From: Prostheceraeus crozeri | Lineage: Eukaryota > Platyhelminthes > Polycladida > Euryleptidae | Length of the DNA stretch: 64,000 nucleotides | Direction of reading: 5' to 3' | Assembly: GCA_907163375.1 (NCBI GenBank) | Contig: CAJQUW010003229.1 | Coordinates: 1 to 64,000 of the forward strand | Shown: positions 3,989 through 54,180 of the stretch, piece after piece | How positions within the stretch are numbered: the stretch's first letter is position 1 | Layout of the letters: each line of letters starts with the position of its first letter | Made by a program: the position numbers and the translations under genes | The notes under the pieces: generated by a model | The model's database searches: none | Told to the model about the DNA's origin: nothing | Seen by the model: only the letters and a program-made list of their open reading frames with translations

Positions 3989-4117
3989 GATATATATGAT
4001 AAGAAATGACTCAATTTAGGATTTCCATGCTATACAGAAAGTACTCGGATGCTTCGCATCCTCGTACTTTCTATGCATGGAATTCCTAAATTCAGTCATT
4101 TCTTATACACAGATATC
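3989..4117. repeat. Long palindrome (foldback)
   Basis: Two arms of about 63 bases are inverted copies of each other, meeting at a GGATGC-TTC-GCATCC tip centred near 4,054. The outer parts (GATAAGAAATGACT and its complement) differ at a few positions. Such foldbacks are commonly non-autonomous DNA elements; no target duplication was found. Confidence 0.75.
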
Positions 4118-23029: not shown

Positions 23030-23612
23030 AGTAATGTATGTATGACTCCCCCAGACCACCACCCCCATCAACCAAAATAAATTTTGGGACATACACCCAA
23101 GTTTTTTAAAAAATTATTTAAGAAAAAATATGCACCAAGTTACAAAAAATAATGCAATAAAAAGGAATACTAATATCTAAAAAATAAATTAAAAGTAATA
23201 ATTATGGCGATCTGGGGGAGTCATACATACATTACTTAGGAATGAGAAATGAAAAATAAGAAAATGATACAATTTTGTAAATATTGAAAAATTGAAATAT
23301 TTTTAAAATATAAAATATTTTGTAAATATGAAACGTCAGAATATTTTATTAAAAATGGAAGAAAACGAAAAGTCAATTCTGCCTTCAGCACCTACTGAAA
23401 AGGAATCATTATATCCTTCAATAATTAAGAATGATAATGACTGGACTTTTAAAACACAAAACGAAATTATGACTGAGATAAACCTAGCAAAGCGTAAAGA
23501 TAGAGTACGGTATATGAAAGATAAAGAATCACAATTATTATTAAAATTAGAACATTATGATAAATTAAGAAAAAGATGGGTTAAAGTTAAGAATGTAACA
23601 CAAGGTATAGGA
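23030..23612 (+). repeat. Left terminal inverted repeat of Polinton A
   Basis: Inverted match to 54,079-57,157 (which is interrupted by a LINE). It contains words ACTTGGGTGTATGT and GACTCCCCCAGA and extends into the first 90 codons of the membrane-protein gene. The subsequence ATGTATGTATGACT recurs at 23,219-23,235 inside the repeat. Confidence 0.85.
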
Positions 23613-24018
23613 ATATTTTTTAACAGAAAGTTTAGGAATATTTACAATTATAATAACTTCAGGTGTTTTAGCAATTCCAGTAGTTGCTACAGCTTTAACA
23701 AGTACAGGTCTTTTTGCAACTTCAACTACTACAATTTTAGAAAAATCTTTAGTATCAAAGAAACAGAAATCATTAAAAAGGAAATATCAACATGTTAAAG
23801 AAGTATATGATAAACTTCATTATCATTTTCAAAGATCAATTGGTGATAATATTATTACCTTAGAGGAGATAGAAGCTTTTGATAAAATAGCTCATGAAGT
23901 AAGTAAACAACCTAAAATGATAACACAAGGAGGAAAAGAGGGTAAAGAAGATAATTCAGCTTTTTTAGAAGAAATTAAAACGTTAGTAGAATCTTTAGAA
24001 CAAAATATAAAAAAGTAA
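23345..24018 (+). pseudogene. Polinton A membrane protein (TIR-embedded)
   Basis: The frame begins MEENEKSILPSAPTEKESLY and has a basic helix (RYMKDKESQLLLKLEHYDKL) before a hydrophobic region, then an acidic C-terminal tail ending IKTLVESLEQNIKK. A frameshift near 23,620 breaks it just where two membrane segments start. It matches Polinton B's intact homologue at 40,416-41,075 throughout. The 5' third lies in the terminal repeat, so a second, partial copy exists at the right end. Similar two-helix proteins accompany many Polintons; their job is unknown. Confidence 0.7.
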
Positions 24019-24962: not shown

Positions 24963-25124
24963 ATGAAAAAGAGTTAGAAAAAATTAATAATCATTTAGAA
25001 ATCTAATTGATATTTTAAGTTCATCAAAATTTAGTACGACATCAAAATTTATAGCAACTACTTCATCACATACTTGTAATTTAGATCCTATTATTCATTT
25101 AGAACAAGGTAAACATTATGAAGT
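24963..25124 (+). pseudogene. Polinton A penton-like minor capsid protein, 5' part
   Basis: MNEKELEKINNHLEN start of the minor capsid gene, cut by Polinton B at 25,124 in the middle of a codon run that continues at 41,520. A frameshift lies near 25,005. See the 3' part at 41,520-42,151 and the B homologue at 38,550-39,331. Confidence 0.75.
25119..25124. repeat. Target site duplication of Polinton B, left copy
   Basis: TGAAGT, identical to 41,520-41,525. Six bases is the Polinton size. Confidence 0.95.
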
Positions 25125-25780
25125 AGTAGTATATAGTGTGACATCCGGCGCGACGCTTCGCTTCGCTTTGCTTCGCTTCGCTTGCGCCGGATGTCACACT
25201 TTTGCGGGTTTTTTCAAAAATCAAAATTTCAAAAATTTCAAAAATTTAGGTAGACTTCAAATTTCACGTGGCCGAAGGCCGAAGGGCGAAAATTTAAGCG
25301 TTTTTAAAAATACCCAATTTTCAAATTTTTCAAAATCTCAAAATTTGAGAATTACAATTTTCACCCTTAAAATCATGACCGTTCCAGGACACCGAAAAAT
25401 CATAAAAGTTAAGAATCTCAAAATTTGAGAATTACAATTTTCACCCTTAAAATCATGACCGTTCCAGGACACCGAAAAATCATAAAAGTTAAGAATCTCA
25501 AAATTTGAGAATTACAATTTTCTCGCTTAAATCATGACCGTTCCAGGACACCGAAAATCATAAAAGTTGAGAATTTCAAATTCATGAATTTTATCCATCT
25601 TTCAGGTTTTCAAAATATATCATGTGACTAAAAATATTTCTTTAAAAATGGAAGAAACAAAAGTGGATGAAACAAAAGTGGAAGAAACCGCAAGAATATA
25701 TCCTTCGTTTTCTCAATTAAAAACAAGTGAAATGGTTCTCAATTATTATTAAGATTAGAGCATTATGATAAATTAAGAAG
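25125..25780 (+). repeat. Left terminal inverted repeat of Polinton B
   Basis: Inverted match to about 40,900-41,519. It contains a subterminal hairpin, then two to three tandem copies of a unit of about 80 bases (GACCGTTCCAGGACACCGAA core at 25,379, 25,459 and 25,533), then the start of the membrane-protein gene (METKVDE-type start, repeated VDE/VEE) which is truncated by a deletion and stops. The right copy has two units. Confidence 0.9.
25135..25200. repeat. Subterminal hairpin of Polinton B
   Basis: AGTGTGACATCCGGCGC at the left pairs perfectly with GCGCCGGATGTCACACT at the right around a CTTCG-rich loop of GCTTC repeats. The inverted copy is at 41,446-41,511. Protein-primed replication origins lie at such ends; a role is inferred only. 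Confidence 0.9.
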
Positions 25781-26516
25781 ACGCAATTATTACTTAGACA
25801 TTCTTCGTTTTGTATTCCCAACATTATTTAAAGTACTAATTGTGTGAACTAGAAGATCATTGTAACTCATAAACTCAAAATTATTCAATGAACCCGTACA
25901 CTGGCTGATAATTGAAGAGAGAGAAACATCTAGCAGCTTTCCCCTAAAATTATCGTGCTATCTCTTGTCATTTCAATTTACCCATCGGTAAACTTTTGAC
26001 ATTTCAACTTACGCGTGCGTAAAGTTTTGACATTTCAATTTACCCCTACGTAAATTATTTTCAGAATCTGTTTTCAAAATCTATTTTCAAAGTCTGTTTT
26101 CAAATTCAGTTTTAGAAATCGATTTGCAAAATTCATTTAGCGTTTGCCAAACACATACGGGTAGTAAAGTACTTCCCAATGTGAAGACATGACTAGATTA
26201 AGCACATAAGAGTGCATTGTCAATAAAAGCAAATGACAATAAAATTCTTCTTGTGAACTCAGAACGCATAAACGCCGATATGCGGGTTAGTTGTTATGGC
26301 AATTTTAAACAATCATTTTAACGATAAAACATATTAACAAATGAAGTTCATGAAGAAAATGGAATATGTAAAACAATATAGATTAGAATAATTATAATAT
26401 AATCATTTCAAAATCGAATAAGTAGTAAGGAAAGTCATCATTAGAGAACAGTTTTAAATCAATACCCCCTCCCTTCTGACTTCTAGGGGTCCCTTAAGAA
26501 ATTTTTTTATTATAAA
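25781..26516. other. Gene-free left part of Polinton B with short tandem repeats
   Basis: No gene. At 25,966-26,058 a unit of about 31 bases (TTTTGACATTTCAATTTAC plus a variable GTAAA end) is present three times; at 26,058-26,125 a 15-base TCTGTTTTCAAA-like unit recurs about five times. Confidence 0.6.
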
Positions 26517-26940
26517 ATGAGCAACATAAAGGAGTTTTTTAAATTATATGGAACGCAAACCACGACAAATTTCGACCTAAAGAAAATCGCAAATGAATTG
26601 GGAATAAAGAATTTTCATGTTCTAATGAGAGACCCAATTACAATTCCTAAAAAATAGGCCAACTGTAAATTTCATAACAAATCTTCATACGACAGATGAA
26701 AAAGGTGTACATTGGTCAGCAGGACGAAGAAATATAAACTGTTCTAATTATTATTTTGACTCATACAGACTTCCACCTACAAACGAAGTCAAAAAATTAC
26801 TTGGCAATGGAATTTATAATACATTTCAAATTCAAAAACCAGGAACTACATATTGCGGTCAATTATGTCTTTATGTTTTATTTAAATAACAGGAAGGAGT
26901 ACCATTTCTAGATATTATGTTAGAATTGAACGAACCGTAG
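26517..26940 (+). pseudogene. Polinton B adenain-like cysteine protease
   Basis: Starts ATG at 26,517 after TTATAAA. The catalytic set of an adenovirus-type (C5/Ulp1-like) maturation protease is visible: His in GVHWSAG, Asp in YYFDSYRLPP, and Gln-x-x-Cys in YCGQLCLYVL. It would cleave capsid and core precursors during virion assembly. A single-base frameshift near 26,648 separates the start from the catalytic part, and a TAA near 26,887 precedes the last 16 codons, so it is dead. It is one of two plus-strand genes of B and converges on the integrase with 34 bases between stops. The A homologue is at 52,376-53,060. Confidence 0.8.
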
Positions 26941-26974
26941 GCTCTATGGCTACGCCTAATGAAAATAATGATAA

Positions 26975-28353
26975 TTAAAAATCAGTTCGTTGTAATTCAT
27001 TTTGATAAAATCGGCCACTGATATTTTCATCATCTAAATCTTTGATTTCGTAAGTAATCGGATAAGTTTGATTTATTTTGCAAACTTCAAATATTTCTTT
27101 AGTTCAGTATCCGACGAAGCCTTTTTCAAATTTATTCTTATATTTAAATATTCTAACTCTATCTCCAATTTTAAATTTCGGCTTAAGTTTCTGCAAATTC
27201 GGATTACTCTCATTCAAATTATTATTTTCGTTCGAATAATTATTCTCGAATATTTTCTTTCGGATTAAATCAGGGTCGTCAGAAGCATTCTTTGGAGTTT
27301 CTTCAATACCAGAATGAACTTTATTATTGTACTTTTCTACAATTCCTGGTAATATCTTCAACCATTTCTGATTTCTTTGCTCTTGAATTTCTTGAATAAT
27401 TTATTTTTTAACGTCCGATTGAATCTTTCTATCACTACAGCTTTTCCAGCGTTTTCAGTTGAATAAACAGTTTCAAATAGTGGCTGAACGTTTCGGTTAT
27501 AAAATTCCGACCCTTTATCAACAAACAATTTTTTTGGCTTTCTCTTACTTTCTTTAAAGATTTCTTCAAACGCATATTTAACTGATAGACCACTTTTATT
27601 TTTTAAAGGCTTTACCCAAGCGTATCATGTATATAAATCTATAACGGTCAATGCGTATTTGTAGTCCCTTTCATTCGGCATATGAATAAGATCACCACTC
27701 CAAATATCATCTTTATTAAATACTTTTAATTTCAATAAATATTTAGGCTTTCTATATTCTTTATGAATTTCGGACGCATAGCGTCCTAGGTCATTCGACA
27801 TTTCAGACGCGTAGGTTCGAGCGTTGCTCTCAGACAGCTTTGCTGTCGTTTCATTTAAACCCTGGCCGAATAATATTTTAGCTTGAAAAGCTTTCTTAAC
27901 AAACATTCTTTCAATTTTTTCTCTAAATGTAGGATTCTGAATACTATCTAATTCTTGAATCATCTTCTTATCAGCTGCATGACGAGAACTTAGATCATGA
28001 TTTCGATAAGCTAAATCATGTCTATAAGCGGCGGCATCTACTCTATTTATTGGTTCTTCACCTGGTTTCGGATTATTATTCTCATCTAGTCTTATATCTA
28101 ATCGAGTTCCTGGACCGGTATATGAATGACCAAGAAGATGTTTTTCTTTTGAATATTTACTCCAAATAAATCCAGGAAAGTTTTCTAATGTTTTTTGTAT
28201 GTCACCACCGTAGGTAGTAGCCAAACTTTGTTTGTCGTCGTTACCTTCATAAATTTTACAATTTGAGGTTTTATGTACTTTTAAGAGATAATTCAATAAA
28301 TCTAAATTAGAAATTTTTAATTTAATTAAATTTTCGGAATTTTTAGAATTCAT
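26975..28353 (-). pseudogene. Polinton B phospholipase A2-integrase fusion
   Basis: The probable start is the ATG at 28,353 (MNSKNSENL, preceded by TTTTAAA). Residues about 75-150 form a parvovirus-VP1-like phospholipase A2 domain: calcium-loop YTGPG, then AAAYRHDLAYR with the catalytic His-Asp. From about residue 195 a retroviral-type integrase follows: SEIHKEYRKPKYL, first Asp in IWSGDLIHMP, second Asp in LFVDKGSEF, Glu in ENAGKAVVIERFN, and a C-terminal SH3-like part (KIGDRVRIFKYKN). No HHCC zinc domain lies before the core. Lesions: TGA at 27,622-27,624, a frameshift near 27,385, and TGA at about 27,104 where A has Trp. The joint is collinear with A's copy, so the fusion is not an artefact of one insertion. 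Confidence 0.85.
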
Positions 28354-28467
28354 TTTAAAAGATAAAATAAATGTTTTACCTAATAGAACCAAAGGTTCTG
28401 AGGCTTTAGCCGATCGGACCAAAGGTCCTCAGGTTACTAACCTATAGAACCAAAGGTCCTGAGGTTA

Positions 28468-28950
28468 TTACCGAATCATACTAGGACTTAGATATATTCC
28501 AGAACCATCTTTTGTTTCTTTAATTTCAATTAAATCATCAACATTGTGGAGAATATTTTTGAGAACTCTTTTTTCCTTCATCAACTAAATTTAATTTACT
28601 AATAAAATTCTCTACTATTCCTTCTCCCCTAGCAACTTTCTCTAACTCCCTATTATGACGTTTTGTTCTTCTAATGCTGCTTTCTCTGATTTATTTTTAT
28701 TTACTGCTTGGACAATACCAGCTGTCCCACCTGCAACACTTCCTGCTGCTGCTATGCCTCCTATTATTAGAGGAATTAATGGGAGAATTCCACCATCCTT
28801 TTCATCTTGCAATTTAATATTCTCTATCATTGGTTTATTTATGTAATACTTTTTTTTATTAATAGTAATAGTTTTAGGGGTATTTTTGTCAACAATATTA
28901 CGTAATTTTAATTCAACAGTTTTATTATTATTACTTTTCGCTTGCGACAT
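28468..28950 (-). pseudogene. Polinton B pX-like core protein
   Basis: MSQAKSNNNK start after CTAAAAATG. The middle has a strongly hydrophobic Gly/Ala segment, LPLIPLIIGGIAAAGSVAGG, which resembles the hydrophobic core peptides (pX-like) of adenovirus-related elements. A frameshift near 28,660 and another near 28,570 precede the original end (SMIR at 28,468). The A copy at 50,493-50,974 has the same segment nearly unchanged. The role in packaging the genome or in membrane action is inferred from similarity of position, next to the capsid gene. Confidence 0.65.
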
Positions 28951-29074
28951 TTTTAGTAAAAAAATTTTAATTTATCAAGAATTTTAATCTATTCTAGTTA
29001 TGAAAAATTTTTAGTTAAGAATTTTTTAATCTATTCTAGTTATGAAAAAAATTAAATTAATTTATTCTAGCCAT

Positions 29075-30390
29075 CTACCCATTAAGAACTTCAATAGAAT
29101 ATTTTGCATCTTCTAGCAATAAACCATAAGCCATCAATGAAGTTGTGGAATCTTTCTTTTCAATTTTAATTGTTACATCACAACCATTTTTAATAATATC
29201 TTCTGATTGTGCACTTAAATCGAAACAGAAAACAGGATATAAATGTCTCCAATCTCCAGGAGTTAATTGTGGTTCAACTCCAAATTCTATACAAACATTT
29301 CGATAAGAATCATATCCTTCCATAAATTGATTATTAGTATCATCGAATCTTAATGGATCAATTGGATATCGGGTTTGATTTAATGAAACTTGTAAACTTC
29401 GAATTGTATTAATATGAAAAAGATTGTTGTTCTTATCAAAACTTGGAGAATTATTTCTTTGAAAAGTTAGTAATAAATATCTTGGAGTATTCGCAGTTCT
29501 AGTAAAATGCCAGTTAAATCTTTGTTCGGAAAAAGTTACTGAACTAGCAGTACGCTTTAGAAAATTTACTGGAATTGGTTTGTTAGTATTTAATCTTTTT
29601 GCAAGGCTGTTTAAATCTTTAAACTAGGAGTAATATGCTTAATCCACCATTCAAGTCTATCAATTTTTAAATATGCTTTTTTTCCAGTCTTACCAAAAAA
29701 GATTAATTCATTATTTGCTGTACGATGAATTATTAATTTAAATTTTAATTGATATGATATTTTGTCATAATCTAAATATCCGAATAATGGAGACAATGAC
29801 CAATTTACAGTCTGTTTACTTTTCTTGTTAAATTCACGTCTTTCTTTATATGCACTATTGTTTGTTTTATTTAAATGTTTTGCAATATTTTCTACATCTT
29901 TCGCAATTCCTGCTGCATCTGTTCCAGCGTGAGTTAAATCATCAACAATTATACCATCATTAGTATCAGGAAACCAACCTTCGATTTCATACTTTTTATT
30001 ATTTTCACCAATTGTTACAAATCTAAGCATTGTATCAATTACACCTGGAGAATCACTTATTGTTTCTATATTTTGAGTTGCAACATCTAAACGCATTTGT
30101 GTAAATAATCTTGGAAAAAAATTATTCTCTAGTGCAATATTATCGGTTTCTGGTAATGGTGTTGTAAAATTGGCATCACTATACAAAGAATATTCACAGT
30201 GTAAAAATGAATCAGGTAGATATATATAACTCTGCTGATTATCAACTTCAAAAATTAAATCACCTCCAGTATTTACTCTACTGGAAGATCCGGGATTCAT
30301 AGCAATTCTTATATAGTCATTCTTTTTTTGATTGCAACTGACGAACGGAGGATCGTCTAATCTAAATTTATTTTCGATAAGCGAAGACAT
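29075..30390 (-). pseudogene. MCP: Polinton B major capsid protein (double jelly-roll, hexon-like)
   Basis: About 438 codons in two frames joined by one frameshift near 29,612. N-terminal half: MSSLIENKFRLDDPPF, a strand-rich region with YIYLPDSFLHCEYSLY, NIALENNFFPRLFTQMRLD, and LFGYLDYDKISYQLKFKL. C-terminal half: FNWHFTRTANTPRYLLLTFQ, QFMEGYDSYRNV, and LYPVFCFDLSAQSEDIIKNG before the VTIKIEKK strand. This is the layout of hexon-like double jelly-roll capsid proteins of Polintons/adintoviruses, which form the trimeric capsomer. One indel apart the gene is intact. Confidence 0.8.
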
Positions 30391-30544
30391 TTTTATAAAA
30401 AATAATTTGACTTTTTGTTTTTCTCACACACAGAAAAGATTCTGCTAAAATAATTTTACTAAAAAAATTTTGCTGAGAAAATATTCCTAAAAAAATTTTA
30501 CTAAAAAAATTTTACTAAAAAAAATTTTACTAAAAAACATAATT

Positions 30545-31075
30545 TTAGAATTTTGCTAGACCAGCTACGCTACAGCTTTGCTGGTTAAACCGAAGGTTGC
30601 TGCTCACGCCATTTCCTCTTATTTCTTCAATTGAACGTTTTATGGCTACGCCTGATTTCTTCTTATGTTTACTATCAGACGGAGCTCCGCTCCTCAAGGT
30701 TTCCCCAACAGCTATGTTAGCAATTTTATTTTTTGTTTCCTCTGAAAGTTTTTTTAAATTTTTTAGTTCTTCGGAATCATTCCTAAGTTTACGAATAGCT
30801 TCTAGTTGTTTTAATTCGTTTTGAGACTTGACAGCATTTGATATTGCACTAGCTGTACTACCTATAGCAGCTGCTCCTTTTGCAGCAGATGTAATCAAAT
30901 CTTTATTATTTTTAATTAAGTTAACGATACTTCCAATACCAGAAAAGATGCCAGCTCCTTCCGTGTGAACTGTTTCTCTATTATCATAATGATAAACAGG
31001 ATTCATACGTGGTTCATGAGCAATTCTTTGATTTGAAGCAAATTGTTTAAGATTGTGTTTATAAATTATAGGCAT
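30545..31075 (-). CDS. Polinton B putative virion core protein
   Basis: Intact frame of 176 codons, starting MPIIYKHNLKQF after CCTAAAAAATG. It has a Gly/Ala/Ile helix region AGIFSGIGSIVNLIKNNKD then ITSAAKGAAAIGSTASAIS, a Lys/Glu coiled-coil, and a basic patch SKHKKKSG. Genes of this kind between the capsid and fiber genes in adenovirus-like elements encode core or minor virion proteins. Two hairpins (30,573-30,583; 30,681-30,693) lie inside its frame, adding residues. No A copy remains. Confidence 0.55.
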   Translation of the reverse strand: MPIIYKHNLKQFASNQRIAHEPRMNPVYHYDNRETVHTEGAGIFSGIGSIVNLIKNNKDLITSAAKGAAAIGSTASAISNAVKSQNELKQLEAIRKLRNDSEELKNLKKLSEETKNKIANIAVGETLRSGAPSDSKHKKKSGVAIKRSIEEIRGNGVSSNLRFNQQSCSVAGLAKF

Positions 31076-31237
31076 TTTTTAGGATTAAATTTGTCTTTTG
31101 GGAAAAAATATTTACGATTGGTTAGTAACCTGAGGACCTTTGGTCCGTTTAATATTTGCGCTGAGATTTACGTTTATGATAAGGTAATAACCTCAGGACC
31201 TTCGCTCCGATAGGTTAGAAACCCACGACTTCGTCGA

Positions 31238-32125
31238 TCAAGATTTACGTTTGTGAATGGACAACAACTTCGAGATAACTTTATTAATTGACTGTTGCAC
31301 TTTATCTATTGCGTCAAGCAGCGTGTGATGTACTTTTATTTCTTTTCTATTAACTTGCATTTTCTGCTGATTAATCTTCAATGCCGTTTTAAGTGCATTT
31401 AACTTAATTTTAAGATCATCTAATTGTCTTTTAACAGCATCTAACTGTTCTTTATTTTCTTTAGAGTTTTCTTGTAAATTTTTCTTTAATTCATTTTCTA
31501 AATTGATTTTAAGAGTTTTCATTTTATCAACTCTTTGATTAAGCGAGTTTACTTCATTTATTATTCTATTCATCTTTTTCATTTGTTGAGTAATTTTAGA
31601 ACTTAATTCATCAACACTTTTTTGGAATGTACTTTGTAACTGCTTTAAATTTTTTTTAATTCTTTCAGGTAGTTTTTCTATTTCATCTTCTAATTGTTCT
31701 TTTAACATTTTTATCTGATGTTTATTTTTAATTACAGCAGATTTTAAATTTAAAGAAAGTGATATTAAAATTTTTGATTGTTCAGAAATCTTTTTAAAAA
31801 GTTTTGCTATATCTGCTTCTAGCTCTCTATCCTTTTTATCAAGTTTTAATAATTTTTCGTTTAATGATTTGTCATTAAGTTTAAGCAACTTTAATTCATT
31901 CATCAGTGGAACCAAAACATCGTTTATATATTTTTCTTTTAAGTCATTGATTTGTGTATCAACATATTGTTTATTTGTCAACTCTGTATTTTGTTGCGGA
32001 AGAATAGAAAGATGCAATGGACCAGATAAAACGTCTCCAGTTTTCATAATATAATTTTCTATTCCTACTTCTAATTCACGATTATTCGGGATATATGCAC
32101 CTCCACCAACATTTGGTAACATCAT
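31238..32125 (-). CDS. Polinton B fiber-like coiled-coil protein
   Basis: Intact frame of 295 codons, MMLPNVGGGAYIPNNRELEV start after GTTAAAAAATG. Residues 28-60 have MKTGDVLSGPLHLSILPQQN and then LTNKQYVDTQINDLKEKY, a pattern seen at the head of trimeric fibers and tail-collar proteins of viruses and phages. Residues 60-290 are an almost uninterrupted Leu/Lys/Glu coiled coil, ending in a basic IHKRKS. Likely role is a trimeric stalk on the virion, by analogy. Knob domain is not seen. It lies beside core and capsid genes; A has lost it. Confidence 0.55.
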   Translation of the reverse strand: MMLPNVGGGAYIPNNRELEVGIENYIMKTGDVLSGPLHLSILPQQNTELTNKQYVDTQINDLKEKYINDVLVPLMNELKLLKLNDKSLNEKLLKLDKKDRELEADIAKLFKKISEQSKILISLSLNLKSAVIKNKHQIKMLKEQLEDEIEKLPERIKKNLKQLQSTFQKSVDELSSKITQQMKKMNRIINEVNSLNQRVDKMKTLKINLENELKKNLQENSKENKEQLDAVKRQLDDLKIKLNALKTALKINQQKMQVNRKEIKVHHTLLDAIDKVQQSINKVISKLLSIHKRKS

Positions 32126-32172
32126 TTTTTAACAATAAAAAAATAAATTTTTTTTCTAATAAAAATAAAAAA

Positions 32173-33416
32173 ATGGATAAAGCAAATTTAAAAAATTATA
32201 TTCGTCCGCATCATCCTGTTCTTCTTATTCGACGAGATCAACGGGATTTGAAAATAAATGTTTTGATAATAATAATAATAACAATCCATGTATAGATGTT
32301 AATATTTTATTTCAATTACAAGCCGAAATATTTAGAGAACAAACAAAAGGTTTACCTTCTATAGAAACTAACTATTGTTTATTTCCGGGTGATCCATTTA
32401 TTAAATTTATGGATATAGTAAGTAAATATAATGATGTAGCTTATGTTGAATTAAATAAAGAAAATATGGTTATAATAGGTCATAATAACGTTTATGGTTT
32501 TATTAGAGCAGTGTTACCATTTAGTAATACTGAATGGATAGAAAATAAAATTATTAATTATATCAATATTAAAGAATTAGTTCAAAAATTAAAATCTTTT
32601 TCCAAGGAAAAAATTAGATTATTTGTTGATGAACAAAATCAATATAACATTCATATTGAAAGTAAAAAACATAATGAAGAATGATTATGTAAAGTTTATT
32701 ATAGAGACACAATTTATAAACAAGAAACATTAGAAATGCCCCAAAGATATGATGATGATACGTATATAGGATTATATTCCAACTTAAATATTAATTTATT
32801 AAAATCTTACAAAAATGGTTTAGCTCAACAAGAGAAAATTTATATGTGGACAACACCTTATACTATTAACAATGTCCATAATCATAATCATAATAAACGA
32901 ACTGAAGGTTCTAGGGCTTTGCCCGATCTTAAAGAAACTAATAATAATGATAATAATATAGATGATGATTCTGAAACATCTGAAAAAGGTGTAAATGGTA
33001 ACAAAGATTATAAAAATATCAGTAATTATAAAAATTTAAGTGAAGAAAAATTTATATCTCATACTGATGTACATGATATTAATACTACATATAATCAAAA
33101 TTTATCTAAATTTCATTTTCTTACAACTGAAAATAATAATGATGGTATAGTTGAAGATACTGTTAGACAACTATGTGTCGGGTCTACAAAATTTAAATTA
33201 GGATTTACATCTAATCAGTTTAAAATTTTATCATCTTTAATAAAAACTAAAAGTGATTCAGATTATGGTGGTGTTATTAAATTTTCCAAAAGAGATCAAA
33301 GACCAATATTTTTCTCTATTATATTATTATCAGATAAAAGATGTAATTTAGAGTTAGATATTCCAATAAGAGAATGGTATCCTATCAGGAATGGCATCCT
33401 ATACCAAAAAGTGTAA
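32173..33416 (+). pseudogene. Polinton B unknown protein on the opposite strand
   Basis: Starts MDKANLKNYIRPHH after AATAAAAAAATG. A frameshift near 32,262 (in a GATAATAAT run encoding Asn repeats) and one TGA at 32,682-32,684 break an otherwise long frame. Features: KFMDIVSKYNDVAYVELNKE, a helical KELVQKLKSFSKEKIRLF, a central Asn/His/Asp-rich linker that includes a GGGC-TTT-GCCC hairpin, and a C-terminal strand-rich part with RQLCVGSTKFKLGFTSNQF and ELDIPIREWYP. No family recognised; the two structured halves around a linker could be repeats of one fold, but this was not established. It may have its own promoter, diverging from the fiber gene (47 bases between starts). Confidence 0.55.
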
Positions 33417-33585
33417 TTTATGATGTTGAAGAATCAATTTATGATGATGATTAAGAATCAATTGATGATGATGATGAATAATCAATAGTTAGTGAAAATA
33501 AATTTAAATTATCTTTTGATAAAACATTATATGATGAAACTTAATATGATAAAACTTAATAGAAAATACCAAAATATTCGATAAA

Positions 33586-33775
33586 ATTTTTAGATGTAAT
33601 AAGTTTTTAGATGTAATAAGTTTTTAGATGTAATAAGTTTTTAGATGTAATAAGTTTTCAGATGTAATAAGTTTTTAGATGTAATAAGTTTTTAGATGTA
33701 ATAAATTTTTTAGATGTAATAAGTTTTTAGATGTAATAAATTTTTAGATGTTATAAATTTTTTAGATGTAATAAA
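33586..33775. repeat. 17-base minisatellite in Polinton B
   Basis: About eleven copies of TTTTTAGATGTAATAAG with small variations, directly downstream of the polymerase 3' end and of the unknown plus-strand gene. It lies where both transcription units end. Confidence 0.9.
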
Positions 33776-33783
33776 AAAATTAT

Positions 33784-36700
33784 TATTCCCACGTGTCATC
33801 ATCATCACTTAAATTACTCTCACAGATGATTGTTTGAAATATTTCAGCTTGAATATCTTCTCCGTTATAAGGTAACATAATTTCATTTTCATCAGGTGCT
33901 TGACGTTTAAGAATATTTATTTGAACAGAAAATTTTTTTTTTCAGTATTATTATTTTTATCAGGAATACTAATTCCAGTTTCGAAAGATCTTTTCCATGG
34001 TTTATTAACTGTAGTCGATAATGTTTTCCCCGAATATAATTTTAGAAAATCTTCTACTTTTACTTTATCTTGTGAATATCCTTTGAATGTTTTCTTTTCA
34101 CTAAGTCTCCCTTGTTCATCTACAGTAATACAATATTATATTTGGGAGCAATAAACATTGCAAAAATAATTCCACCATTTCCATAATCATTTTTTCCTTG
34201 ACACAATTCTCCTCCAACATATCCAGCAGCATCTAATTTATTAAAGAGCTCATTGGAAATATATATTGAATCAGTATCTGTATAATGAATGTATTTTTCT
34301 TTGAAACCATTAATTTCTAAAATAAAGTTATTCATGATTCTTCTAGAGTGAGAAAGAATGAAAGAACCTAAGTGTGATGGCATGAATGACGTCTTCCCAT
34401 CTTTTACAATATTAGTTTTGAGAAATTCATCATCTTCCATTTCTACTTTCGCTAAATATTGTTCATCATTTAATTTTTCATAATCTTTTACTTCTTGAGT
34501 GAAATTTTTTCTCAATGTATTCTCATTCCATAAATGATATTTAGTGGTTATATCTTTTTGCACAGTTTTGCCATATAGTGAATTCATCAATAATTTAATT
34601 AACTCATCACCTACAGTATTTCCTTCTGTTTTATATCTTTTTCTCAAATTAAAAAGTTTTTCAATATAATTTCGAAATGGTGAAACTTGATAATTTTTTT
34701 CATAAATTATACCATCAGTAATATGTAAGATTTTTCCCCCACATCTAACAATTTCTTGTATGTCTACAGAAGTTAATACATCATAACATATACCATTTCT
34801 AAACCTGATTACTTTTACATGAGAATTATTATTTTGATTTTTAACTTTATCTTTTATAGGAACTGGTTGGAAAAACATATCATTCGGATATTGAAACACA
34901 ACAGAGAATATTCCAGTTTTAGGTCTAAATGTTTGTGTATTAAATTTATATACTATTTCCCGCTCTTCTTCTTGACGAAATTTTCTAGCTGATTCAGCTT
35001 TAGGGTATTCTGAATTTTCATCATACATAGCTGATGGATATAAAGATGTTGCATCAAAAGCCATTAGAAATTCATTTTTTTGTTCAAGTAGGTGATTTGA
35101 AATTTTCTTACAAATTTCAGTTTTATCTCCTAAATCTCGATACTGCTTCATTAAATCTATTAAATTACTTCCAAGGGACAAAGTCCCCCCAGCGCAGCGA
35201 CCAGGTAAATACTGTTTTAATATTGGTAACAAGATGCTACAAAATGGCGATATGTATTTTCTTATATTTGCTGAAACTCTTCCACCTTTAACAGATTTTC
35301 TAATATAATTTCTAGCCCATAAATCTATATGAGAATGAATAATTATATTGTCATTTTGTACGCTTTTCTATGTTAAAGCAGAGGATGTCAAATTAGTAGT
35401 TATATCTTCACCAACTAAATCTCGCATACATTATTATATTTGCAGATACAAAAAGCTAAAGAAAAAATATCGTTAACTAAATATGGTCTCCATTCATTTT
35501 CTTTTTATTTATAATTTTCATGTGTTATGTCTCCAATTTCATAATTTAATTTACACACATTCGTAGGAATTTTAAAATTCTCACACCATTTAGAAAGACT
35601 TGTTTTTACATGTTGATAACTACATTTCATTATTATAGTTTGAAGTGCTAATTTACCTGAAAGTGAATCTTTTTTCATATTGTTTTTAAATCTAAGAGAT
35701 TTTTGAATATATCTACTAACACATTCAGTTGTATAAGGATTTTGTAATGAAGCAGTCAATATTCCTCTTGAAGTTTTAAGAGGCGGTTTAGATAATTTAA
35801 AATTAGCTTTTATCGGAAAATAGGAATCAAAACCTGATGAATTGTGAGCTATTAAAGTTACTCTAGAATAATTAAATTTTCCAAGAGTTTTAAAAAATTG
35901 ATGGATCGGACATACGTCCTCTGGGTTTCCCCCGATCGAACATTCATCATCCTCAGTTCTCGTAAATATTTTCACACAATTTTGAAGTTTATTAAATTCT
36001 AATTCAGTTAAATTATTATACTCATCAATCTGTTTTTTAAGTTTTTTAATTTCATCTTCATCTTTTGATCGTTTAATTTTAATCATATCACTTAACAAAC
36101 GTGTTTCTAATTCTTTCAATTTTTGTTTCGGTAAACAACATATAAATTTATTAAAATTAATAGCTCCTACAGCGTAAGGAATAGGATGAGCTGTTGAACA
36201 GTTAGGATCGGGAAAAGTTTCGAGATCCCAAATATATGTTAAACCATAGTCAATTTTTTTCTTTGTTATGATTTTATATTGACGCGTTGTTAGATTTTCA
36301 TCAGTAACTGTTTTATATATGGGTTTGAAATTATTTTCAATTTCTCTAATAGCTTTTAATTTATGAGATTTATTAATTAAACAATAGTGACCAATTGTTG
36401 AACCTGCGTGAAAATAATTGTAATAAACATAATTATGAAACGTTTCAATTCCTCTAGGATTTAAATGACGATTGGCAGGACTATAATATTGAACGCATTC
36501 TCCAAAATATTTATTGAATTGAGAAAATTTGCAGTTTGACATTACTCCTGTTCTAGATGTGGCTTTCTCTTTATATAAAAAATTATTAAACATTTCTTTC
36601 ATAATTTCTCCCTGTTCTTCATTAAAACCTCGTAAAACATTATAACATTTAATAAAACAAAAATCTTCAGAAGGAATATAACAATATTCAACGAAATATT

Positions 36701-37271
36701 CTTTGATTCTATATTTCATATTAATCCCTGCCCCTCTATGCGATCTTTGTACTAACTTCATTCCAAAATCTTCATATTTAATGTTACCTGTAAAAATCCA
36801 TTCGTTAGCATCGGATTTCTCATCCAGATTCGAAAACCATATTTCAAATGAATTTTTATTATAGGTTACGTAAAAATTTTGAATTATATTTTCCTGATCT
36901 TTAACAACTTTTCCAAATAAATTAATAATTTTACCATTTGCTAAAAGTTTCCTCATATCATTTACTACATTAATAAAATATACATTTTCATATTTAATTT
37001 CATTTGGATTAAATAAATTACATAAATCATCACCAAGTTCATCCTTAATTCTATCATCAAAAAAGATATCACTAATAGGAGTTTCTAATATTTCTTTTGT
37101 TCCACGTTTCTGTTTTTTAGTATTACGTCTAATACTACGCCTAGTACGTTTCTGTTTTTTAATACGTTTACTACGTTTACTATGTTTAATTTGCGCATCA
37201 AACTCAGCAGTTTGTTTCTTGATTAATTCATCAATCCTAGACGTTTGTCCGAGAGACATTTCACGATTCAT
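33784..37271 (-). pseudogene. polB: Polinton B family B DNA polymerase (protein-primed type)
   Basis: About 1,160 codons. Start MNREMSLGQTSRID, then a very basic stretch (KRSKRIKKQKRTRRS). Exonuclease motifs: IWDLETFPDPN (DxE) and IAHNSSGFDSYF (Nx3-5D). Polymerase motifs: A in FDATSLYPSAMYD, B in LLMNSLYGKTVQKD, C in YTDTDSIYI. The organisation is that of Polinton/adenovirus-type protein-primed polymerases, which copy linear genomes from the terminal repeats. Lesions: TAA at about 35,503, a frameshift near 35,430, TAG near 35,372, frameshifts near 34,137 and 33,937. Hairpin inserts at 35,175-35,187 and 35,908-35,931 lie in the coding frame. A lost this gene and has an unrelated-looking polymerase instead. 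Confidence 0.9.
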
Positions 37272-37320
37272 ATTTTTTAAAAGAAAAAATGAATTTTTAC
37301 ATAGAACCTCGGTTCCGTTT

Positions 37321-37638
37321 TTACATATACACAGGAATATGTAATTGATGTAATGTTTCTAATTCATGTGTTGTTAAATGTTCTTTCTTAACCAACCACC
37401 ATAAATTATTATACGCCAAAAATACTCGGAAACTTCTTAAACAAAGTGGAAAGTCTTTTGTTTTAACACACGGTTTAATACCATGTTTTGTTTTATAATC
37501 TGTAACGAACGCTACGTATTTATCATGATAATAAAATCTAACTTCTTTCTTCGAATTTACAGGATTTGTAGGATGACGATAATCTTTTAAAACTGGTACA
37601 TGCTCTATCTTGTAAGCACTCAACATATTTTTTTTCAT
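37321..37638 (-). CDS. Polinton B small conserved-looking protein, unknown
   Basis: Open frame; the likely start is MKKNMLSAYKIEHV at 37,638, with TAATAAAAATG context. About 106 residues, with aromatic-rich RFYYHDKYVAFVTDYKTKHG and a C-terminal LETLHQLHIPVYM. Undamaged although its neighbours are broken. It is placed between ATPase and polymerase and read in the same direction. Not recognised. Confidence 0.5.
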   Translation of the reverse strand: MKKNMLSAYKIEHVPVLKDYRHPTNPVNSKKEVRFYYHDKYVAFVTDYKTKHGIKPCVKTKDFPLCLRSFRVFLAYNNLWWLVKKEHLTTHELETLHQLHIPVYM

Positions 37639-37696
37639 TTTTATTAACAAAAAATTTATAAGAAAAAATTATTCGTTCACTACGCGAAAATATTTT

Positions 37697-38442
37697 CTAT
37701 AACTCTATCATGAATTTTTTATCAATATTAATTGTGATAAATCCATAATCTTTTGACCAAGCATTGTTACACGATTGTTTAAATTCATCTTTATTTCTTA
37801 CGCATAAATCTCTTAACAAATCACTTAAGTTTCTTGCATTTATTTCAAATAGTATAAATATATTTGCATTCTTTCTAATAACACTTCCGTCTAATGAATA
37901 CATACTTTGTGTTAAATAAAATACACTACAGTTGTTATGTCTACCTCTTGTGAAATAATTTCTCTGAACTGACTGATTTCTATCATTAACGCAATCATCA
38001 AAAATTACATAATGTTTCATTGTTTTATCTAGTTTACTAGGATCTTGCATATTACCACTATCATCTATTAATTGTATCTTTATATGCTTATTTTTATTAG
38101 ATTCAACTAACTGATTATTTTTTGCTGCTTCTTCACACCACGAACTTATTTCTTCTTCATCTTCAGATTTTTCATATTCTTTGAATAATGAAGCAATTGC
38201 TGTTTTTTAAGATTATTTTCAAATCCATATTTTAAAAATTGATAGACGGGTTGTTCTGCTGTTGTTGTATAAATTATAAGATTGTTATAATCCAAAAAAT
38301 TTGGAGTCGTTAAAATTTTAAATAATAGATATGTTTTTCCACATCCTGATCTTCCACAAATAACTGACAAAACTTTATTAGATAAATTTGGATGATGATT
38401 AAATTTAAGTTTCTTTTTATTTAATGGGGGTAGTTCACTCAT
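37697..38442 (-). pseudogene. Polinton B DNA-packaging ATPase (FtsK/HerA, A32-like)
   Basis: Start MSELPPLNKKK after ATTAAAAAATG. Walker A is ICGRSGCGKTYLL (residues about 29-41), Walker B is HYVIFDDCVND, and the downstream TRGRHNNCSVFYLTQS is the sensor-like motif of this family. It would pump the genome into the capsid. One frameshift near 38,207, in a run of A, is the only lesion. The A homologue (42,214-44,360) is split by a Harbinger transposon. Confidence 0.85.
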
Positions 38443-38522
38443 TTTTTAATAAAAAAAATTATTTTTATTTTATTTTTATTTTTAAAGAAGAAGAAGAAAA
38501 TTAAACTTCTCTAGCTTCGCGT

Positions 38523-38562
38523 GGGAGTTTATACCTCCCGAACGGGAGTTTATACCTCCCGA
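38523..38562. repeat. Tandem GGGAGTTTATACCTCCC hairpins
   Basis: Two copies of GGGAGTTTATACCTCCCGAAC in tandem between ATPase and penton genes; each can fold. The second extends into the gene end. Confidence 0.8.
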
Positions 38563-39331
38563 ACCAAAAGATCTATCATAATATCTTCACCTCCAAAATT
38601 TATTTCTTGTCCTTTCTCATCAGTGATTCTAATGTTAATGTTGTTAATAGTTTTTCTTGTAATAGGGAAATATATTAATGTTTGTGGAATTACATTTAAT
38701 CTATAACCAATGGGTACAGTAAAAGCTGGAAAACTGAATATTAAATTTGACAATTTACCATTTATATATCCTCCTTCAATAATGTCACAATGTACAACAA
38801 TTGAATTTATTTCAGTTATTTTTGGAATCTTCTCACCTAAATGATAACCTTGACTATAGGTTTGTTTATTAAATCCTAATAGCTTTGACAATGATCTATC
38901 ATGATTAAAATCAACTTGATGATTTTCGTTTAAAGTAAGAGAAAATTTATTAACTGCCGGTTCAACTGCGAAATGTAATTGTTTCTTATCTTTAAATGGT
39001 ATACCTAAATGTCTCTTAATTTCATTTGATATTGATTCAACTTCGTAAGAACCAGGAAGAAAAGTTTGTATTTTCCATGTTTTGCCTTTATCAGTAGAAT
39101 ATCTAAATTGATCATTCACATCTTTGATAACGTTTTGAATAGTGTTAAATGTAGAGAAACTAGTCACTGCTAATTTTTATTTTGTTCCAAATGTAGAATG
39201 GGTTCTAAATTACAAGTGTGTGATGAAGTAGTTGTTATAATTTTTAACGTCGTACTAAATTTTGATGAACCCAAAATCTCTGTTAGATTTTCTAAATGAT
39301 TATTAATTTTGTCTAAATCTGCTGAACACAT
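38550..39331 (-). pseudogene. Polinton B penton-like minor capsid protein
   Basis: The A copy shows that the start is the ATG at 39,331 (MCSADLDKINNHLEN, after CTAAAAAATG). The main frame runs 38,550-39,167 with SFSTFNTIQNVIKDVNDQF, SYEVESISNEIKRHLGI, DRSLSKLLGFN, ITEINSIVVHCDIIEGGYIN and RITDEKGQEINFGGED. It is strand-rich, as expected for the single jelly-roll vertex protein of Polintons. A small deletion near 39,170, compared with A, puts the N-terminus out of frame. Confidence 0.75.
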
Positions 39332-39350
39332 TTTTTAGTTAAAATTTTGA

Positions 39351-39440
39351 ATAAATATTATAGATAAAAATCGTAGATAAAAATCATAGATAAAAATCAT
39401 AGATAAAAATCATAAATAAAAATCATAGATAAAAATTAGA
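39351..39440. repeat. 14-base tandem repeat
   Basis: About six copies of ATAGATAAAAATC in the intergenic gap between penton-like and coiled-coil genes of Polinton B. Confidence 0.85.
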
Positions 39441-39469
39441 AACAACATATTTCAGCTACGGGGGAAGCC

Positions 39470-40294
39470 CTAGAACATTCGGTTCGTTATACTTTTATAA
39501 TCCTTTTCATTTAGAATCTTCTTTTCTAACAGTCTTTTCAATATAGCATGAATTTCATTGAAACTAGAATTATGTCCTTCTTTTATTGCAGATATTAAAA
39601 TATTTAATCTATTTAGTAATTGTTGTGGATCATCTGGTAAAAATATGGTTGTTTCTGTTTTCTGTTTTTCGGATAAACCTTTTCCTACTTTAACTCCCGT
39701 TGATAATAAATTTTCTAATTGTTTATAACGTCTAAGAGAATTTACTGCACCAACTCTATCTAACATAGCTTTATATTTTATGAGATCTTCTACAGCATAA
39801 TTATTTAAATCTGCTCCTCTTAAAAGATCAACAAAATTTCTATCTAAACTAAAAGGAGATTTATCTGGTGAAAAAATTAAACCTCGAAAAGGTTGTGGAA
39901 ATATTTCTTTTTGTCCGAGATAAAATCTAGGTATTGTTTTTCCATCTATAAATGAAATAGAATGTTCAAATTGCATAGATTTTGGTAATTTCTTATTAAT
40001 GTTTGATTCTAGTAATCCATAGTCATCTAATATAGTTTTGTGCTCTGGATCTGTTATATCAATTTGTTTATCATTATTTGTACTTTCTTTTTCAAGAGTT
40101 TTAAATGGTTTCATAGTTTTCTCAAAATCAGTTTTTACTTGCTCGGTTTGCTGCATTTTTTCAAACATATCAGATTGAATACCAGCTTTTATCATTCTAT
40201 GTTGAAGATGATTTTCTTTCATAATATTTCTTTGTTTTATTAACTCTTCTAATTGTTTTATTCTTTTAAAATTATCAGCTCTAATTTTATCCAT
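39470..40294 (-). CDS. Polinton B conserved protein with coiled coil
   Basis: Intact frame; likely start MDKIRADNFKRIKQL at 40,294 (TTTTAAAAATGG), although the frame opens to 40,360. N-terminal 90 residues form a coiled coil; then DYGLLESNINKKLPKSMQFE, SFIDGKTIPRFYLGQKE, SLDRNFVDLLRGADLNNYAV, and a C-terminal FLPDDPQQLLNRLNILISA, EGHNSSFNEIHAILKRLLEK block. The last block is shared by many Polinton-encoded proteins. Function unknown; position next to the capsid genes suggests a virion or assembly role. Confidence 0.65.
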   Translation of the reverse strand: MDKIRADNFKRIKQLEELIKQRNIMKENHLQHRMIKAGIQSDMFEKMQQTEQVKTDFEKTMKPFKTLEKESTNNDKQIDITDPEHKTILDDYGLLESNINKKLPKSMQFEHSISFIDGKTIPRFYLGQKEIFPQPFRGLIFSPDKSPFSLDRNFVDLLRGADLNNYAVEDLIKYKAMLDRVGAVNSLRRYKQLENLLSTGVKVGKGLSEKQKTETTIFLPDDPQQLLNRLNILISAIKEGHNSSFNEIHAILKRLLEKKILNEKDYKSITNRMF

Positions 40295-40415
40295 TTTTAA
40301 AATATAATATTTGAATTTTGTGGTAACATTGGAATACAGCAAAAACATTTTACTGAACAAATTATTTTTTTATTGCTTTGTTGTTTGACATCTTTTCGTT
40401 TAAAGTTTTCTCGTT

Positions 40416-41075
40416 TTAAGTTTTGTTTAATAAAGTTTTGCTTAAATTTTCGCTTAAAGTTTTTAGCTCTTCTAAAAAAATTTTGTCATTTTCTTCATTA
40501 GAAATTTTACCATCACTGGAAATTTTGCCATCCTGTCTATTCTTATCATCAACTTTTTCGGACTGTAATTGAAAGGTTTGATTTACTTCATTAGCTATTT
40601 GATCAAATTTTTCAATCTCATCTAACGTAATAACATTATCATCACATACTCTTTGAAAGTAGTAATGTAGTTTATCATAGACTTCTTTAATATGTAAATG
40701 CTTAGTTTTTAATGATTTTCGTTTCTTAGTTATTAAAGATTTATCTAACATTGTAACAAGTGAAGTTGCAAAAACACCCGTACCTGTTAAAGATGTAGCA
40801 ACTACTGGAATTACTAAAACACCTGAAGTTATTATAATTGTGAATACCCCTAAACTTACTGTTATAAAGATTCCAATTCCTGGTGTTACATTCTTAACTT
40901 TAGTCCATCTGTTTCTTAATTTTCTATAATGTTCTAATCTTAATAATAATTGAGATTCCTTATCTTTCATATAACGTACTCTATCTTTGTGTTTTTCTTT
41001 ATTCAATTCACTTATTTTTAACTGTGATAACGAAGGATATAGTCTTGTGGTTTCATCCACTTTTGTTTCTTCCAT
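40416..41075 (-). CDS. Polinton B membrane protein (TIR-embedded)
   Basis: Intact frame; start MEETKVDETTRLYP at 41,075 (CTTTAAAAATGG). A basic helix RYMKDKESQLLLRLEHYRKL is followed by two hydrophobic segments, GIGIFITVSLGVFTIIITSG and VLVIPVVATSLTGTGVFATS, then KKRKSLK and an acidic tail ending SENLSKTLLNKT. The 5' part lies in the right terminal repeat, so its promoter is copied at both ends of the element. Likely a membrane-inserted protein; role unknown. Confidence 0.7.
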   Translation of the reverse strand: MEETKVDETTRLYPSLSQLKISELNKEKHKDRVRYMKDKESQLLLRLEHYRKLRNRWTKVKNVTPGIGIFITVSLGVFTIIITSGVLVIPVVATSLTGTGVFATSLVTMLDKSLITKKRKSLKTKHLHIKEVYDKLHYYFQRVCDDNVITLDEIEKFDQIANEVNQTFQLQSEKVDDKNRQDGKISSDGKISNEENDKIFLEELKTLSENLSKTLLNKT

Positions 41076-41519
41076 TTTTAAAGAAATATTTTTAGTCACA
41101 TGATATATTTTAAAAACCTGAAAGATGGATAAAATTCATGAATTTGAAAATCTTAACTTTTATGATTTTCGGTGTCCTGGAACGGTCATGATTTTGGGAG
41201 TAAAAATTGTAATTCTCAACTTTTGAGATTCTTAACTTTTATGATTTTTCGGTGTCCTGGAACGGTCATGATTTTAAGGGTGAAAATTGTAATTCTCAAA
41301 TTTTGAGATTTTGAAAAATTTGAAAATTGGGTATTTTTAAAAACGCTTAAATTTTCGCCCTTCGGCCTTCGGCCACGTGAAATTTGAAGTCTACCTAAAT
41401 TTTTGAAATTTTTGAAATTTTGATTTTTGAAAAAACCCGCAAAAGTGTGACATCCGGCGCAAGCGAAGCGAAGCAAAGCGAAGCGAAGCGTCGCGCCGGA
41501 TGTCACACTATATACTACT
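40900..41519 (-). repeat. Right terminal inverted repeat of Polinton B
   Basis: Inverted copy of 25,125-25,780, with the hairpin at 41,446-41,511 and the GACCGTTCCAGGACACCGAA unit twice. The inner limit is approximate because the left copy has a deletion. Confidence 0.9.
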
Positions 41520-41525
41520 TGAAGT
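41520..41525. repeat. Target site duplication of Polinton B, right copy
   Basis: TGAAGT, same as 25,119-25,124. Confidence 0.95.
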
Positions 41526-50389: not shown

Positions 50390-50470
50390 AGCCCAATACT
50401 TCGTCGTTCGGTTAATAACCGCGTTTACGATCGGTTAAAGCCCAAGACTTCGTCGATCGGTTAAAATATT
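50390..50470. repeat. Short repeats with CTTCGTCG cores
   Basis: TTAAAGCCCAAGACTTCGTC and a close copy occur within 60 bases, each with a CGAC-TTC-GTCG-like hairpin core also found at 31,226-31,236 in Polinton B. Confidence 0.6.
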
Positions 50471-54025: not shown

Positions 54026-54180
54026 ACAATTGGGCGATCATCAGAGTGCAAAGCTGTAGCAACAACAAGGAATTGTACTCCTATACCTTGTGTTATATTT
54101 TTTGCTTTAACCCATCTTTTTCTTAATTTATCATAATGTTCTAATTTTAACAATAATTGTGATTCTTTATCTTTCATATA

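Follow-up and report, generated by a model that had tools for sequence, protein, structure and literature searches.

A 64,000-nucleotide stretch of DNA from the flatworm Prostheceraeus crozeri (contig CAJQUW010003229.1, positions 1 to 64,000; hereafter the window) contains a Polinton transposon, Polinton B, in which a first-pass annotation had noticed dispersed hairpins with three-nucleotide loops. Most of these hairpins are halves of double-hairpin units, which that annotation had missed. The units very probably form a dispersing family of inserts, and the hairpins are probably the visible halves of very short mobile DNA elements spreading among the Polintons of this genome. The host element is defined as follows.

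25125..41519, unstranded: Polinton B, 16.4 kb, two ends present, inside Polinton A.

Polinton A is an older element with pieces on either side of B. The annotation had given the limits 26935-38562; B itself reaches further both ways. All twelve palindromes that it listed are present where it placed them, with perfect stems of 4-6 bp and loops that are all of 3 nt. Perfect hairpins were counted in 25125-41519 and compared with 100 dinucleotide shuffles. For stems of at least 4 bp with at least 3 G/C and a 3-nt loop, B has 14 hairpins against a shuffled mean of 1.66 (maximum 7), a count above that of composition-matched sequence, and for stems of at least 5 bp with at least 4 G/C it has 6 triloop hairpins against 0.11. 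Loops of 4, 5 and 6 nt are not enriched in B over these shuffles, and 7-nt loops are weakly enriched (4 vs 1.0). Regarding the surroundings, the left part of Polinton A has no triloop hairpin and the right part 4 (1.4 expected), while the left host flank has 2 strong ones (0.55 expected). The hairpins of the host flanks differ from those of B in stems and loops, a C:G-closed stem with a GNA-type loop being found in one of nine host hairpins with stems of at least 5 bp and at least 3 G/C (at 4047).

A unit is about 22-34 nt long and consists of a hairpin with a 3-6 bp stem and a 3-nt loop, usually C:G-closed, a linker of 2-4 nt and a second small hairpin. Folding of eight chosen units from spacers and genes as single-stranded DNA gave two hairpins, 2-4 nt apart, in every case. 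A miniature transposable element (MITE) with terminal inverted repeats was considered and rejected, since all eight units fold as two separate hairpins with unpaired ends and the length of the duplications varies. The folding energies are only modestly better than those of shuffles of such short strings (z -0.99 to -4.83), and the case therefore stands on comparison, not on energy. Among 42 distinct spacer units, 95.7% of the cells in the first stem are paired (86.9% shuffled), doubly changed stem cells number 17 against 5.5, with none of 500 shuffles as high, and the first-stem covariation score is 0.268 against 0.127. Compensated changes occur at two of the five stem pairs (GC to AU and CG to GC) and, together with unrelated stems at separate sites, they bear out the earlier remark that stems differ while geometry is kept. 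Hairpins are also swapped between units: first hairpins of the GGACC and of the GGAGC type are combined with second hairpins of three kinds each, and some combinations of first and second hairpin occur just once.

Loop sizes were counted in 141 kb of pooled stretches around B-like Polintons, about 83% of which is B-like. With stems of at least 5 bp, 3-nt loops number 131 against 10.2 shuffled, 125 of them closed 5'-C...G-3', and 4-nt and 5-nt loops exceed shuffles only slightly (1.3-fold and 1.6-fold). When stem/loop classes, which are not fully independent, are counted once each, C:G closure is seen in 26 of 37 (p 9e-9 vs 1/4) and a GNA loop on one strand in 13 of 37 (p 3e-4 vs 1/8), with AAA/TTT loops in 6 further classes. 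GNA loops with G-C closing pairs are the hyperstable type of DNA mini-hairpin, the example GCGAAGC having a melting temperature of 78 C (PMC4686876). This heptamer is contained exactly in the unit GGAGCGAAGCTCC. Since C:G closure and GNA loops are of this hyperstable DNA type, the loop statistics point to a structure that counts in the DNA single strand rather than in RNA.

Exact matches were counted over the 2.05-Gb assembly, with reversed patterns as controls. The sequence GGACCAAAGGTCC has 3473+3430 copies (reversed pattern 11+8), the 27-mer GGAGCGAAGCTCCTCGAGGCTTTAGCC 765+676 and the 25-mer GAACCGTAGGTTCTATGGCTACGCC 829+928, with reversed controls of 0 for both of the latter. B-like Polintons are very numerous in this genome, and B-family Polinton DNA was found at 40 of 40, 20 of 20 and 20 of 20 loci examined for the three sequences, respectively; all 47 hits of the GGACCAAAGGTCC set (38 non-redundant loci) lie inside a B-like segment or at most 250 nt from one. 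These loci were the first by contig order or were picked from that list and are thus non-random; two repeat hits (L006 and L014, of L005 and L013) were removed before counting, loci without an anchor are absent from the number given for a site, and several loci share one Polinton. A second set was obtained with a capsid-gene (MCP) probe, for which the best 40 of 517 candidates were scored and stretches taken for 20 of these; its members are close relatives of B, also non-random, and the data on spacer 2 below come from the hairpin-selected set alone. The 25-mer GAACCGTAGGTTCTATGGCTACGCC stands at two unrelated places, 16 of 20 copies being at the end of a plus-strand frame (26932 in B) and 4 of 20 in orf176, and at both kinds of place it is preceded by AATTGAAC or a variant of it differing by 1-2 bases.

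Outside genes, the units form tandem arrays in three spacers, as follows for B.

28386..28472, plus strand: spacer 1, PLA2-integrase/orfX, three tandem units (28386-28411, 28416-28442, 28447-28472).
28951..29084, unstranded: spacer 2, orfX/capsid-side gene, empty in B, 1-4 units in other copies.
31120..31236, minus strand: spacer 3, orf176/orf295, three reversed units (31120-31146, 31183-31208, 31213-31236).

The spacer-1 units of B are separated by GATC and TATA, and the unit at 31120-31146 is the exact reverse complement of that at 28416-28442; both orientations are present. Other copies have 0-5 units in spacer 1 (it is empty in L032 and L037) and 0-6 in spacer 3, and at the place homologous to spacer 2 (50394-50458) Polinton A carries members of this unit family. 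Reading of 125 spacers, B's three included, gave 180 units, which represent 66 different sequences. At the 38 loci that GGACCAAAGGTCC had picked out, the fraction of copies holding units is 26/29 for spacer 1, 21/31 for spacer 2 and 20/27 for spacer 3, and among the capsid-probe copies spacers 1 and 3 are filled in 18 of 19 and 11 of 16, respectively; pattern matching misses mutated units, and sites scored empty in L023 (spacer 2), L065 (spacer 1) and L073 (PLA2-integrase linker) hold degenerate units. Thus, the hairpins are not fixed at identical places in all relatives. Their presence and absence among many copies in the same genome agree with the annotation's view that they behave as small insertions, with the frame kept at coding sites alone. 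That view has to be corrected in one respect: several elements recur at the same sites, and therefore part of the pattern reflects descent, exchange and loss, not fresh insertion.

Inside reading frames, units were found in five genes. Among 112 length differences of at least 9 nt at eight coding sites, 107 are divisible by three, compared with 35 of the 92 seen in spacers 1 and 3. The figures refer to copies rather than events, and site 26932 is excluded from the coding count. The coding and gene-end sites of B are listed here.

26932..26956, plus strand: double hairpin GAACC-GTA-GG(T/C)TC / TAT / GGC-TAC-GCC, end of a plus-strand frame (..PFLDIMLELN).
27772..27786, unstranded: linker hairpin GGACGC-ATA-GCGTCC, with A matching at the same place.
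27815..27847, minus strand: 33-nt in-frame segment of the PLA2-integrase linker, hairpins 27819-27829 and 27833-27847.
30573..30598, unstranded: double hairpin CAGC-TTT-GCTG / GTTA / AACC-GAA-GGTT in orf176, near the C-terminus.
30681..30693, unstranded: hairpin GGAGC-TCC-GCTCC in orf176.
30940..30985, minus strand: site in orf176, empty in B; other copies have a 36-nt in-frame double hairpin.
32899..32924, plus strand: double hairpin GAAC...GTTC / TA / GGGC-TTT-GCCC in the plus-strand gene orf226, with GATC next to it.
35175..35187, unstranded: hairpin GGGAC-AAA-GTCCC in the PolB reading frame.
35908..35931, unstranded: double hairpin GGAC-ATAC-GTCC / TCT / GGG-TTT-CCC in the PolB frame.

The extra in-frame codons with two hairpins that the annotation saw in the PLA2-integrase gene are confirmed as 33 nt, or 11 codons (about 27815-27847), that A does not have. 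The hairpin at 27772-27786 is present as described; since A matches there, it does not belong to this insertion, and it is missing in shorter linker alleles. In other copies the number of related modules, which are 27 nt or 33 nt long, varies, and the linker falls into twelve length classes of 36-117 nt in 45 copies. In the integrase part, a 27-nt double hairpin is present in L027 and L015, that is in 2 of 27 hairpin-selected copies and in 0 of 3 others; its flanks are GTC/GTC in L027 and ATC/ATC in L015, each fitting its own background. The plus-strand frame at 26932 converges on the PLA2-integrase gene, and the element there lies past the PLA2-integrase stop and provides the stop codon of the plus-strand frame (..LELNEP stop).

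In orf176, the pattern of the hairpin at 30681 was found in 36 of 43 copies (19/24 and 17/19), mutated copies being scored as misses. The 36-nt insert, GGCACC-TGC-GGTGCC / TA / GGAAC-6nt-GTTCC, is present in 28 of 47 copies (20 of 27 hairpin-selected and 8 of 20 MCP-probe copies), and in the filled/empty pair L054/L047 the 210 flanking nucleotides are identical, with one mismatch within the 46-nt site. An orfX insert of 42 or 57 nt occurs in 3 of 49 copies, with the frame open in all three; in B itself a stop interrupts the orfX frame close to this site, at which 42 of 50 sequences read have the frame open. Within the orfX insert of B-like copies lies ACATCTCCGATGT, a sequence that A-like stretches have as well. 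The double hairpin of orf226 is missing in one of six copies scored. In PolB, the 30-nt module with the hairpin at 35175 occurs once or twice, being doubled in frame in three of five copies scored, with a partial copy out of frame in one of the five, and the double hairpin at 35908 is present in all four copies scored.

Polintons are of the type replicated by strand displacement with protein-primed polymerases. The mechanism that we favour, with somewhat less than even confidence, is copying of the units on displaced single strands by hairpin-provoked template switching, together with exchange between Polintons; the copying is placed on Polinton DNA because no examined copy lay elsewhere. The protein-primed Polinton polymerase would displace single strands during replication, these strands would fold into hyperstable mini-hairpins, and the polymerase or the repair machinery could switch templates and so copy a unit to an adjacent site or to one with microhomology, which would leave duplications of 2-5 nt and tandem arrays. 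Recombination between Polintons would spread, swap and delete the units, which may be tolerated in spacers and flexible protein segments and selected out elsewhere. The units would in that case be selfish passengers, the DNA structure itself being the replicating unit. More tentatively, the element might be reduced to structure altogether, with C:G-closed triloops (often GNA) as its sole conserved property, and might propagate on single-stranded DNA intermediates without a protein of its own while remodelling genes in frame.

Regarding exchange, 10 of 16 stretches (L080-L095) lying 5-7 kb from a B-like capsid gene match the polymerase side of A, not that of B, so that exchange between the two Polinton families looks frequent. 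The A-like stretches (L087, L088, L091, L082, L086) have triloop hairpins of their own, namely CAGTC-TTC-GACTG overlapping CTGTG-AAC-CACAG, and GACATC-TCC-GATGTC.

Several observations weigh against the interpretation as mobile elements. The units were not seen to move and no enzyme that moves them was identified; the apparent target duplications are of 2, 3 and 5 nt, with 11 nt at the C site of orf176, and are unclear in spacers; and many units stand at the same sites, where part of the polymorphism is due to descent, unequal exchange and loss. The data come from one genome only, and the first 40 loci were picked by hairpin sequence, several of them in one Polinton. The contrast with host DNA is blurred by the right host flank, which has 3 strong triloop hairpins against 0.42, a number equalled in 1 of 100 shuffles. 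The covariation is limited to two of five stem pairs of a spacer family with related members, and neither double-change pairs (2 vs 1.8) nor further pair types (6 vs 5.8) are above shuffles. The commonest loops are AAA/TTT, not GNA, and in the A-like stretches 4 of 10 triloop hairpins are closed by G:C. The pooled stretches are also raised for loops of 6-9 nt (20-66 vs 7.5-8.6); most of those of 6-8 nt are recurring copies of the orf176 insert's second hairpin or of a small number of palindromes conserved in genes, beyond which an excess of 9-nt loops is left.

Four other explanations have to be set against movement by template switching. In the first, which we regard as unlikely, a single-strand transposase (HUH/Y1, RAYT-like) moves the units in trans and cuts beside a tag such as NATC. 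The spacer units are indeed bordered by NATC/NAT, the precise presence or absence of 36 nt in orf176 would suit an enzyme, and REPs are tagged palindromes of 20-40 bp, some inside genes, for which mobilisation by RAYT is given as a hypothesis (PMC3733652). No such transposase was found among the 11 open reading frames (ORFs) of B scanned with Pfam, which are part of its ORFs, and all examined copies lie in Polintons. Small duplications are seen, whereas Y1 insertion leaves no target duplication.

Slightly less probable again is an ordinary minisatellite, in which tandem repeats of 21-36 nt arise by slippage and unequal exchange and palindromy is incidental. Such an origin would account for the tandem periods, which are 30/31 nt for the spacer arrays, 27 nt for the PLA2 linker, 21 nt for orf176 and 30 nt for PolB. 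It fails to explain why two hairpins per unit, 3-nt loops and C:G closure are common to unrelated repeats with hardly any rise in 4-5-nt loops, why stem changes are compensated, and why a given unit is found in several spacers and at two coding ends unrelated to each other, and in its plain form this origin was rejected. Signals that function as RNA or DNA and are under selection in spacers, such as 3'-end processing hairpins, which giant viruses have, terminators or operators, are more doubtful still, RNA terminators having been rejected. The location of all three arrays in gene spacers and the compensated stem changes are in keeping with them; spacers are nevertheless empty even among hairpin-selected copies (3/29, 9-10/31 and 7/27 for spacers 1, 2 and 3), the same kind of unit lies within reading frames, the spacer 3 units are reversed though all flanking genes are on the minus strand, a scan of B with Rfam gave no match at gathering scores, and the loop preference suits DNA, not RNA. 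That the hairpins are chance palindromes of AT-rich DNA to which the eye has given too much weight can practically be dismissed in view of the shuffles and the whole-genome counts with reversed controls, even if each hairpin is small and the right host flank is slightly above shuffles in strong triloop hairpins.

Polinton B, the setting of these units, begins with AGTAGTATATAG and ends with its inverse; its terminal inverted repeats start AGTAGTATATAGTGTGACATCCGG and it is bordered by a 6-bp target duplication, TGAAGT (25119-25124 and 41520-41525). The repeats hold GGCC-GAA-GGCC, a C(GAA)G mini-hairpin, at 25270-25280 and 41364-41374 of the window. The nested Polintons span 23500-54200, the terminal repeats of A being at about 23511-23615 and 54076-54180. 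Pfam searches found a PLA2 domain in one ORF of B and PolB in another, and the capsid assignment is weak (double jelly roll, 20.9 bits, under the curated cut-off). The integrase part of PLA2-integrase is assigned by its similarity to A, whose ORF matches rve, and is thus putative; the PLA2-like domain runs on into the integrase at 26700-28353. Many metagenomic relatives have the fusion of PF08398 and PF00665 as well. A protein search gave 126 homologues, of which 38 were aligned; this alignment served only to see that the length of the PLA2-integrase linker varies, as it does in relatives from other sources. Viral contigs scanned with PolB, the capsid-like protein, the PLA2-integrase alignment and a 21-nt unit pattern contained no relative, and therefore gave no outgroup Polinton DNA. 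A 17-nt AT-rich repeat is present in about 10 tandem copies 3' of orf226 (33586-33763), and a different type of hairpin, twin GGGAG-TTTATAC-CTCCC palindromes with 7-nt loops, is found at 38523-38561. The flanks of the window contain reverse transcriptases and one ORF with SCAN and weak zinc-knuckle matches.

Regarding known systems, a full-text literature search for Polinton or Maverick with palindrome or hairpin, covering titles and abstract openings and few subscription papers, gave no description of such elements. Rickettsia RPEs are likewise palindromic and occur in spacers and as in-frame protein fusions; they are bacterial, 105-146 bp long, and have a long stem-loop and terminal inverted repeats, whereas the present units have two short stems within about 22-34 nt (PMC2229807 for the RPEs). 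Bacterial REPs resemble the units in their 20-40 bp, palindromy and short unpaired tag, and differ in being single tagged palindromes with a transposase hypothesis (PMC3733652). The palindromes of Volvox organelles mostly have 3-5-nt loops, fill non-coding DNA and have nuclear copies, but these copies are judged inert organelle transfers, and the palindromes have a mean length of 50 nt and were reported for non-coding DNA (PMC2670323). Sponge mitochondrial RHEs include double and tandem hairpins in spacers, with few in genes; they are organellar, and their stems are conserved while loops vary, whereas here stems also co-change (PMC2800124).

The likeness to bacterial palindromic elements drawn by the first-pass annotation is fair, yet mitochondrial double-hairpin elements (DHEs) and GC clusters are closer in anatomy. 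DHEs were reportedly first described from Allomyces mitochondrial DNA by Paquin, Laforest and Lang in 2000. By description, they too have two adjacent small hairpins per unit, are dispersed at low-constraint sites and differ in their insertions between close relatives (PMC2800124), as in the presence and absence seen here. The present units differ in sitting on long contigs of the 2.05-Gb assembly, inside nuclear Polintons and not in mitochondrial DNA, in including several in-frame protein-coding insertions, and in their small flanking duplications, which are not seen in Allomyces (PMC2800124). Yeast mitochondrial GC clusters are GC-rich and optional in reading frames, including var1, and titles cited in the same source mention their mobility, target sites and tandem arrays (PMC2800124). 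Optional in-frame presence is likewise found here, the orf176 insert being carried by 8 of 20 MCP-probe copies, and candidate target duplications are of 3 nt at one site on two backgrounds and of 2 and 5 nt elsewhere, spacers being unclear. GC clusters differ in compartment and host, and from the two-hairpin unit with C:G-closed triloops, all examined copies of which are in one transposon group. The movement of DHEs and GC clusters is unsettled, with opposite views for yeast and Allomyces (PMC2800124), partly, we think, because mitochondrial genomes offer few copies. In the present genome the host element exists in many copies, and sites with and without a unit can be compared on nearly the same background; the junctions of insertions, the choice of target, the growth of tandems and the loss of units can therefore be read directly. 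If the interpretation given here is correct, double-hairpin elements are active in a nuclear lineage of DNA transposons and viruses, and single-stranded DNA structure is the thing selected.

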